Of a DNA stretch of 64,000 nucleotides, positions 46,980-49,963 are shown in pieces. The translations under genes were made by a program, and so were the position numbers. Within the stretch, counting starts at the first letter, position 1. Each line of letters opens with the position of its first letter. The stretch is taken from NCBI GenBank assembly GCA_025359885.1, contig JANYDG010000027.1, forward strand, positions 1-64,000. Reading direction: 5' to 3'. The notes beneath the pieces were generated by a model that was not told the origin of the DNA, ran no database searches, and saw only the letters and a program-made list of their open reading frames with translations. This stretch comes from Acidobacteriota bacterium (GTDB lineage: Bacteria > Acidobacteriota > Terriglobia > Terriglobales > Acidobacteriaceae).

Positions 46980-47393
46980 CTATGTCTTCTTTGAAGCCTT
47001 TACCGCAGCTTTCGGCACAATGATCGGCTTCCGCAGCGGCACCATCGCAGACTTTGAAGCGGCCCCTGAAGCCTGCGTCACATGCGCCAGCATCTCCGTC
47101 CGCACATACTCCACAAAGCTGTGCATCTGCCGGTTCATCTCCTCCATCCGCTCCCGCATCTGCAGGATGATCCCTATTCCAGCAATATTCACTCCCAGAT
47201 CCCGCGCCAGATTCAAGATAAACTCCAGCCGCTCCAGATCCTCATCCGTATACAGGCGCGTGTTTCCCTCCGTCCGCGAAGGCTTCAGCAGCCCCTCACG
47301 CTCGTACAGCCTAAGCGTCTGCGGATGAATGTCATACATCTCAGCCACCGCCGAGATCATGTAAGCGCCTTTGGATTTACGTTTTGCCGTCAT
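46980..47393 (-). CDS. hspR: HspR-type MerR-family heat-shock repressor
   Basis: 137 residues with GAGAGAG before ATG47393. The N-terminal MerR-type winged helix is MISAVAEMYDIHPQTLRLYEREGLLKPSRTEGNTRLYTDEDLERLEFIL (region about 12-60), where HPQTLRLYEREGLL is the HspR signature. A helical segment follows (GIILQMRERMEEMNRQMHSFVEYV), and a basic tail (VPKAAVKASKKT). HspR represses dnaK operons by binding HAIR sequences, with DnaK as co-repressor in actinobacteria. A HAIR-like site lies before dnaK in this window. It is separated from dnaJ by a toxin-like gene and its partner, which is unusual. Confidence 0.88.
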   Translation of the reverse strand: MTAKRKSKGAYMISAVAEMYDIHPQTLRLYEREGLLKPSRTEGNTRLYTDEDLERLEFILNLARDLGVNIAGIGIILQMRERMEEMNRQMHSFVEYVRTEMLAHVTQASGAASKSAMVPLRKPIIVPKAAVKASKKT

Positions 47394-47400
47394 AGCTCTC

Positions 47401-48018
47401 TCAGACTGACTGCAATCTCTGTTGCCAACGTTCTGGAGTCATCCGGTAAGGCTCCAACATCTCCTTCAAATCGGTCCCGGCGTCTGTCACCGAATAGCCG
47501 CCTTTGCTCATCCAGGAATCTGTTGCAGCGTAACCTTTCTCTTTGAGTACGTGTAACGCTTCCTTGTAGGTAATCGCATAGATACTGCTTTCCTCATAGT
47601 CCTTCGCATTCCAGACATAAGCCAGCAGAGAGCGCGGCATCTTCAAGTCATTCTTGTGCAAGGAAAAAGTCTTATGAATCGATGTCTTAATCTGAACTGC
47701 AAACGGTATCAGCTCTCGGTCTGGTCCCCCATCTCGATAGATTAGAAAATCGATACGCTCACGACTAAGCGGCTCTGCGATCTTAAGGCCCGCAGATTGA
47801 ATGTGTGAGATAAAAATATCCTTACCTACCTCGCGTGTGTTGGTGCCTGACCAATTCGTCGAGTCAAGCGGGTCTTCGAATTGAGCATCAGGGTCGTGGT
47901 CGAGGAGTGTGACGGAATGTCCCTTCTGATACCGTTCATAGAATCGTCCGAGAGTCGGTTTCGAAAAGTCAAATCTGCTTCGAATAGCCGCCTCACTCTT
48001 GGTCATTGACGATTTCAT
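47401..48018 (-). CDS. Antitoxin-like N-terminus fused to a PD-(D/E)xK-like nuclease domain
   Basis: 205 residues from ATG48018, which has AGGAGG five bases upstream. It overlaps the BrnT-type gene by 26 bases. Residues about 15-47 (FDFSKPTLGRFYERYQKG, then VTLLDHDPDAQF) resemble the start of many small antitoxins (DFS, RG-Y, RY-x-G, V-x-LD-x-D). The following part has RIDFLIYRDG and PFAVQIKTS, a D...QxK arrangement as in PD-(D/E)xK nucleases, then LLAYVWN and IYAITYKEAL. A C-terminal MTPERWQQRL helix ends the protein. I infer an antitoxin carrying a nuclease-like domain. A single-domain hypothetical protein is the alternative. Confidence 0.6.
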   Translation of the reverse strand: MKSSMTKSEAAIRSRFDFSKPTLGRFYERYQKGHSVTLLDHDPDAQFEDPLDSTNWSGTNTREVGKDIFISHIQSAGLKIAEPLSRERIDFLIYRDGGPDRELIPFAVQIKTSIHKTFSLHKNDLKMPRSLLAYVWNAKDYEESSIYAITYKEALHVLKEKGYAATDSWMSKGGYSVTDAGTDLKEMLEPYRMTPERWQQRLQSV

Positions 48019-48322
48019 AATGCCTCCTTTCCCATCGTTCTGAGCGCCGCGCGCTAATGATGCGAATCCCTGTATCCGTTGGAGTGAAAACTACTGTCAG
48101 GAGTAAGCCACGCTGTGATCGGCCGACCGCGAAATAGCGAAGCTCATTCTCACTGTGTGCGCTATCAGGAAAATCGACAATTCTCTTGTCCCCGAACACC
48201 GTGCTGGCTTCTTCAAATGAAACGTGATGCTTTTTCAGATTGCTCTTTGCTTTTGGCGGATACCACTCAAACAAAACGTCGCTAATATCGACTCGATCAT
48301 CGTCGTCGTGCGTCACCGACAT
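47993..48322 (-). CDS. BrnT-family toxin-like protein
   Basis: 109 residues. The BrnT (DUF497) pattern is clear: FEWYPPKAKSNLKKHHVSFEEASTVFGDKR (region about 18-47), then DFPDSAHSENELRYFAVGRSQRGLLLTVVFT and IRIISARRSERWERRHYE. BrnT toxins are RelE-like ribonucleases that block translation and are held by a BrnA antitoxin encoded next to them. Here the downstream gene is not a normal BrnA but a longer antitoxin/nuclease-like fusion overlapping by 26 bases. The pair sits between dnaJ and hspR on the same strand, so it may be co-expressed with heat-shock genes. Toxicity has not been shown for this member. Confidence 0.83.
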   Translation of the reverse strand: MSVTHDDDDRVDISDVLFEWYPPKAKSNLKKHHVSFEEASTVFGDKRIVDFPDSAHSENELRYFAVGRSQRGLLLTVVFTPTDTGIRIISARRSERWERRHYEIVNDQE

Positions 48323-48369
48323 GCTAGGCCCTGCTGAACCCGGGAATTTGTTCCTCCGATACTAGCAAA

Positions 48370-49575
48370 TCACAGCTTGTCAAACAGCGTAACCCGCGGG
48401 TCCTGATTATTCAGCTTCGCAAACTCCCGCATGATCTCCCGGCTCCGCTCATCATTCAACTGCGGTATCTGCACCTCCACCGTCACAATCTGGTCGCCCC
48501 GCTGCCCCGCTGCTGAAGCGCTCTCAACCCCCCGCTCCCGCATCCGCAGCTTTTGTCCGCTCTGCGTCCCCGGCGGAATCCGCAACTGAGCTCGCCCCCC
48601 CTCAATCGTCGGCACATCTACCTTTGAGCCCAGCGTCGCCTCCGCCAGCGTAATCGGCACCGTCAGGTGAATATCGTCTCCCACCCGCGTAAAAACCGGG
48701 TGCGTCCCCGTCCGTACAATCACATACAGGTCCCCCTGCGCGCCGCCACCCGTCCCAGCATTCCCCTTGCCCTGCAATCGAATCCGCTGCCCATCCCGCG
48801 TTCCCGCCTTGATCCGAAACTCGATCGACTCCGTCCGGTACACCAGCCCCTCGCTCTGGCACGTCGGGCACGCATTCGATATCCGTCCCGATCCCTGGCA
48901 CCGCGGGCAAGCAATATTAAACTTCATCCGCCCACCCATCTGCGTCACCTGCCCCGTTCCGCTGCACTCCGGGCAAGTCATCGGCGCGCCAGTTGAAGCC
49001 TGACCATGGCACGTCGGGCAAACCTCCTGCCGCCGTACCTCAATCCGCGCATTCCCCCCGCGTATAGCCGTCCAGAAATCAATCGGTGCCTGATACTCCA
49101 GATCCGTCCCCGCCTCCGGCCCACGACCGCGCCTCTGCTGCTCCGTACCCGTAAAGATCCCCGAAAAAATATCCTTGAAACTTCCCCACGAAGCAGACCC
49201 GGAACCCTGAGGCCCCGCACCCGCAGCCGGTGCCTGACCCGCCCCAAATCCAGAAAAGTCAAAGCCCCCAAAATCCACCGGCGGACCCTGGCGCGCTCCT
49301 GCCTGCTGTCGCGCGTACGCTTCCGCCGTCGCCGGGTCAATCTGGTCTGAATAGAACCCCACCTGGTCAAACACCTTGCGCTTCTTCTCGTCGCTCAAAA
49401 TGTCGTTGGCTTCAGAAATCTCCTTGAACTTCTCCTCAGACTTCTTGTCGTTCGGGTTCACGTCCGGATGATACTTCCGCGCAAGCTTACGAAACGCCTT
49501 CCGGATCTCATCCGAAGTCGCCGTCTTCTTCACGCCCAGAGTGCCGTAATAGTCCTTGTTTTGGGTATTGGACAT
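48370..49575 (-). CDS. dnaJ: Chaperone protein DnaJ
   Basis: 401 residues from ATG49575 ([24 protein letters not shown]). The longer frame upstream has no family similarity. J domain with the HPD loop ([14 protein letters not shown]), a Gly/Phe-rich linker ([24 protein letters not shown]), and a zinc domain with four CxxC units: [23 protein letters not shown] and CPTCQSEG. The C-terminal substrate-binding domain follows ([20 protein letters not shown]-like [17 protein letters not shown]). DnaJ delivers unfolded clients to DnaK and stimulates its ATPase. The next genes downstream are the BrnT-like pair and hspR. Confidence 0.95.
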
Positions 49576-49939: not shown

Positions 49940-49963
49940 GAAATGTTACACGTGTAACATTTC
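49940..49963. repeat. Perfect 24-base palindrome
   Basis: GAAATGTTACAC is followed directly by its exact reverse complement with no spacer. The core TGTTACACGTGTAACA has the look of a dimeric regulator's operator. It lies about 70 bases after the dnaK stop and 365 bases before dnaJ. No T-run follows, so termination is unlikely. Confidence 0.85.

Follow-up and report, generated by a model that had tools for sequence, protein, structure and literature searches.

In the window (the whole stretch of 64,000 nucleotides analyzed here), a BrnT-type toxin gene located between dnaJ and hspR is followed by a gene whose 205-residue product is a real fusion: a BrnT-antitoxin N-terminus is joined to a PD-(D/E)xK-type C-terminus, and the RHH DNA-binding half has been lost. 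On balance, we lean towards viewing this pair as a variant of BrnTA whose antitoxin was rebuilt within the dnaJ-hspR operon, a self-regulating RHH domain being dispensable there as the heat-shock operon would set expression.

Gene organization and the BrnT toxin

The genes dnaJ, brnT, the partner gene and hspR form a co-directional run on the minus strand. The toxin gene brnT (47993..48322) encodes a BrnT-family toxin of 109 residues, a predicted ribonuclease, and overlaps the chimeric antitoxin gene (47401..48018) by 26 bases. Upstream, the stop of dnaJ (48370..49575; Pfam DnaJ and DnaJ_C) at 48370 is separated from the brnT start at 48322 by 47 bases (48323..48369, minus strand), which constitute the upstream junction of the insert. 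Downstream, seven bases lie between the partner stop (47401) and the start (47393) of hspR (46980..47393), encoding a MerR-family heat-shock repressor. The latter was recognized by Pfam MerR_1 and by NCBIfam HspR NF047375 (E 3.3e-30), although its 103.9 bits slightly missed the cut-off of 105. Coordinates, lengths, the overlap and both gaps were identical to those given in the initial annotation. Between dnaK and dnaJ (49940-49963), a ten-pair inverted repeat, GAAATGTTACACGTGTAACATTTC, is followed by a T run and is terminator- or operator-like in appearance.

The gene had been described as a normal BrnT-type toxin gene, and its product indeed matched Pfam PF04365 with 86 bits (E 2.2e-24), above the curated cut-off of 34.5. 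Phmmer retrieved 7vd7, annotated as 'toxin' (E 7.6e-11), and BrnT 3u97 (E 0.035). The conserved residues K31-H32 correspond to the Lys-His pair required in characterized BrnT toxins. The genome of the window (G000) displayed four more BrnT-like matches (C44, C67, C46 and C3); at the one that was read (L104), an ordinary short antitoxin of RHH-like type comes after the toxin gene.

The two parts of the antitoxin

Residues 1-45 of the partner (RFDFSKPTLGRFYERYQKGHSVTLLDHD; 47884..48018, minus strand) comprise the BrnT-antitoxin segment and the first RHH strand, as indicated by hhalign and conservation, and are devoid of the RHH helices. A profile built from ten fusion N-termini was aligned to one built from eleven short antitoxins encoded after other BrnT genes, and residues 6-42 matched with a probability of 98.3 (E 1.4e-14), in agreement with the earlier impression that this N-terminus looks like a small antitoxin. 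The short-antitoxin profile itself matched BrnA-type RHH antitoxins (probability 90.8). The alignment to the short antitoxins stopped after the first strand, and the second RHH half (the SVN.ALR helix) was not found in the partner. The remaining stub keeps a DFS..RG..RY motif plus this strand; DFS, G24 and Y30 were invariant in 13 fusions. In a single-chain AlphaFold2 model, pLDDT values of the antitoxin part were mostly 39-62, and this part may be a segment that folds on binding.

The PD-(D/E)xK domain covers about residues 55-205 (47404..47856, minus strand), as supported by AlphaFold2 pLDDT, VIA-align and a table of conserved residues. Its AlphaFold2 model, for which a 16-sequence alignment was used as input, displayed pLDDT above 85 in most blocks. 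VIA-align of this model gave Z 11.6 to SPARDA DREN, 11.4 to I-Ssp6803I and 9.8 to Hjc resolvase; with three solved members matched and a predicted secondary structure in agreement, the domain adopts a PD-(D/E)xK superfamily fold in the model. The D...QIKTS stretch had initially been taken as a signature of this fold, and the Z scores of 11.6 and 11.4 to solved nucleases, together with the nuclease-like core of the predicted structure, bore this out. The catalytic Asp and the (E/Q)xK required in the superfamily would be provided by D90 (47749-47751), Q109 (47692-47694) and K111 (47686-47688), all on the minus strand, while R62 (47833-47835, minus strand) occupies the position of the helix-1 Glu of relatives.

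Searches of the 205-residue partner against Pfam, NCBIfam, PADLOC and PHROGs yielded nothing above threshold. Among 16 relatives, weak matches to Mrr_cat (E 0.0019), DUF4365 (E 0.0029) and PDDEXK_5 (E 0.087) remained below Pfam gathering cut-offs, and membership of DUF4365 or Mrr was rejected on these scores.

Relatives, other tails and the dnaJ-hspR slot

A first homologue (43 %) came from the genome collection and further ones from a family-wide search. Thirteen distinct fusions with this nuclease domain, designated type A, were gathered. The initial annotation had raised the question of whether such a fusion always follows a BrnT gene; the full-length homologues did so in 13 out of 13 cases. 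All 13 also sit between dnaJ and hspR, a conserved tie to this slot, which holds an additional gene beside the fusion in L010 and L184. Chance or a mis-called reading frame was ruled out by the 13 fusions, by purifying selection and by the conserved slot, and a frameshift artefact joining two genes by the occurrence of the same fusion in 13 genomes. Considering mobile-element or phage cargo, no match was found in plasmids or phages, terminal repeats being compared at the junctions only.

Sixty BrnT loci of genus g9 were fetched blind to the partner tail. Five displayed nuclease-tailed partners, all of them between dnaJ and hspR (one of these, L152, is the same locus as L001); such a partner was found in none of the remaining 55, which mostly carried short RHH or HTH antitoxins, a few being without a readable partner. 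No ordinary brnTA module occupied the dnaJ-hspR slot in the sample. In a phylum-wide sample of 396 genomes, only two, one of them that of the window, carried the type A domain, which is therefore concentrated in one family. The finds belong to one Acidobacteriota family, mostly to one genus, and their lineages and counts are not fully independent.

At L016, an apparently intact type A nuclease domain stands alone in the dnaJ-hspR slot, without toxin or antitoxin stub; since the domain tree nests it within the fusion group (weak support), it is probably a remnant. Other standalone copies adjoin HicB/HicA (L011, L015) or DUF2513-type genes (L012, L014), making the domain a repeated companion of toxin-antitoxin genes; two of these four occur between lpd-like and lipB-like genes. 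In several genera, the slot harbors an unnamed conserved protein of ~150-170 residues without Pfam match (..LLNxAMxYARLILRRYGELGPFGFSM..), often beside a GNAT acetyltransferase (L035, L037, L039, L074-L079, L081, L184). As unrelated cargo also enters, the slot may simply tolerate insertions.

Two other tails were encountered. In type B (L018, at dnaJ-hspR), the gene after a BrnT of the type A lineage encodes the same antitoxin motif, here with two DUF1508 repeats (E 1.4e-45) as its tail. Type C, found in eight genomes plus one degraded copy, carries the BrnT-antitoxin stub on an unrelated PD-(D/E)xK domain with the motif E41, PD70 and E84-x-K86. All type C loci adjoin hspR and lie between dnaJ and hspR wherever both flanks are visible; L083 and L085 are apparently cut by contig ends, so that BrnT is not visible there. 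An internal stop interrupts brnT in L024, and the antitoxin motif is eroded in L087 and L089. The type C model had XisH as best fold match (Z 7.9), along with several restriction or resolvase folds with which acetyl-CoA carboxylase rows were mixed; as these fold matches are middling (Z up to 7.9), the nuclease assignment rests on the motif too. The degraded copy at dnaJ-hspR in genome G160 (L052 / L086) has a broken BrnT and an internally deleted nuclease part, and loss of the module is therefore ongoing. At L190, the type C nuclease domain was seen as a lone gene beside a PIN-like gene, with no BrnT, dnaJ or hspR in the 3 kb covered.

In the BrnT tree, types A and B formed one clade (100/99; eight of the nine type A then known) and type C another (90/76, degraded copy included), L010 standing apart with weak support. 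The dnaJ-hspR arrangement therefore has at least two, probably three, origins at the same place, and one or more exchanges of the tail occurred within a lineage. Among relatives from the genera carrying the module, most have dnaJ and hspR adjacent, about 30-170 bases apart. L022, whose HspR is 98% identical to that of the window, displays such an empty site (dnaJ-48 bp-hspR), and the DNA alignment between the two is interrupted precisely at the stop of dnaJ and the start of hspR.

Possible mechanism and relation to known systems

According to the reading we favor, the N-terminal segment would mask BrnT, and transcription would be set by the dnaJ-hspR operon through HspR/DnaK feedback instead of by antitoxin autorepression, which is why the RHH could be lost. 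The nuclease-fold domain would supply the antitoxin with a folded body, possibly oligomerizing and nucleic-acid-binding; in most lineages it probably cuts nucleic acid as well, while its site looks weakened in the window lineage. BrnT would thus be kept inactive in the unstressed cell; damaged protein would titrate the chaperones and induce the operon, the antitoxin would be outcompeted or degraded, and BrnT would cleave RNA and slow growth. The position of the pair inside the heat-shock operon, constant in all relatives found, suggests a growth arrest wired to protein-damage stress. In another system, Phd-C placed on SUMO, a linear neutralizing motif on an unrelated folded carrier, suffices for neutralization (PMC10440598), which makes a tail exchange plausible. 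We infer HspR control of the module. The HAIR operator pattern had no match in the window with up to three mismatches, and no convincing HAIR-like repeat was found in the regions upstream of dnaJ in relatives; the acidobacterial HspR operator may differ.

The initial proposal that the antitoxin carries a second effector was not supported in that form. In such a module the antitoxin would silence BrnT while BrnT or the complex would silence the nuclease, and stress would free both, for dormancy or abortive defense. The helix-1 Glu, the Asp, the Gln and the Lys are all retained in 10 of the 13 type A fusions, type C keeps E41, PD70 and E84-x-K86, and the closest fold, the SPARDA DREN domain, is that of a collateral nuclease. 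For pairs with an intact site, dN/dS of the nuclease domain (0.03-0.08) was equal to or lower than that of the antitoxin part. The helix-1 Glu, present in the other ten fusions and in standalone copies, is however replaced by Arg in the window (R62) and in its sisters L004 and L006, where the metal-binding Gln has changed to Lys as well; D90, Q109 and K111 are intact in the window. In the domain tree, this subclade is placed on a long branch (0.97 changes per column). Purifying selection acts on both the antitoxin part and the domain (dN/dS about 0.04-0.13, with 0.13 in the domain for L004-L006); as dN/dS is low despite lost site residues, the domain matters in all lineages, though catalysis may not in that of the window. 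Two freed effectors also fit poorly with the DUF1508 repeats that stand in place of the tail in L018 and with the intact nuclease gene tolerated in L016 without BrnT or antitoxin, and we regard this scheme as unlikely.

Alternatively, the tail could tie folding of the antitoxin to the co-encoded DnaJ/DnaK, as ChAD does with SecB-like chaperones in TAC, so that chaperone titration would leave the antitoxin unfolded and BrnT free. An antitoxin with a C-terminal extension is indeed encoded here in one operon with a chaperone, and the three unrelated tails found at one place recall the exchangeable, unrelated ChAD tails of TAC (PMC5105189). However, the ChAD tails tested there have a length of only about 30-42 residues and act with a SecB-like chaperone dedicated to them (PMC5105189), whereas those found here are entire, strongly constrained folded domains; we consider this explanation improbable. 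It is also quite improbable that the nuclease-fold domain simply serves as a DNA- or RNA-binding autoregulator in place of the RHH, or degrades toxin mRNA in a type V-like manner, with a permissive slot and no stress wiring. Ribonuclease activity against the cognate toxin mRNA was reported for one BrnT-type antitoxin (PMC10714953) and the slot takes other cargo as well, but this would leave unexplained why nuclease-tailed modules occur only at this slot and, in the sample, ordinary brnTA never. A broader proposal is a 'heat-shock-wired' class of toxin-antitoxin systems, assembled more than once in the dnaJ-hspR operon, in which brnT is paired with a stub joined to one of several interchangeable folded tails (DUF1508 or either of two unrelated nuclease folds). 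The tail would make the antitoxin a DnaK/DnaJ client or sensor, toxin release would read chaperone availability, and the nuclease would be an extra effector where its site is intact; we consider such a class rather improbable.

In the usual description, an antitoxin combines a segment that binds the toxin with a DNA-binding domain by which the operon is repressed. In the modules described here, nuclease folds have taken the place of this domain, on more than one occasion and only within a heat-shock operon. Should HspR/DnaK really control expression, as the rebuilt BrnTA variant would have it, the module would represent a natural experiment on the disputed stress role of toxin-antitoxin systems. 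It would then also provide a defined minimal segment for toxin neutralization and allow chaperone-linked toxin release to be tested directly by genetics. A search of the open-access literature revealed no description of a fusion between a BrnT antitoxin and a PD-(D/E)xK or DUF1508 domain.

With the type II system BrnTA of Brucella abortus (toxin BrnT, PF04365), the module shares the toxin family, the toxin-first order and an N-terminal antitoxin segment alignable with BrnA-type proteins via the short-antitoxin profile; BrnA, however, ends in an operon-controlling RHH DNA-binding domain (PMC11980606), instead of which a PD-(D/E)xK domain is present here. The double-ribonuclease system Aave_1720-Aave_1719 of Acidovorax citrulli (PMC10714953) likewise combines a BrnT-like toxin with a nuclease-active antitoxin and a stress phenotype, both the nuclease activity and the stress role being putative here; its antitoxin is, in contrast, a BrnA-like protein of 107 residues in which no nuclease fold was recognized and for which no fused domain was reported (PMC10714953). 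BrnT-like toxin genes also lie directly upstream of nuclease-containing systems in the BrnT-CoCoNuT associations (PMC11090510), but as separate genes of McrBC-type systems without antitoxin fusion (PMC11090510). TAC modules (PMC5105189) resemble the present one in their C-terminally extended antitoxin encoded in an operon with a chaperone, which is there a dedicated SecB-like protein and here the general DnaJ, chaperone dependence being hypothetical. As to the nuclease part, D90-Q109-K111 follow the same order and spacing as the catalytic residues D41, Q60 and K62 of SPARDA DREN (PMC12205087), with 19 residues from D to Q. The domain nevertheless differs from DREN and I-Ssp6803I in its context, which is free of Argonaute/APAZ or intron, in an identity of only 11-16% and in the replaced helix-1 Glu of the window copy.
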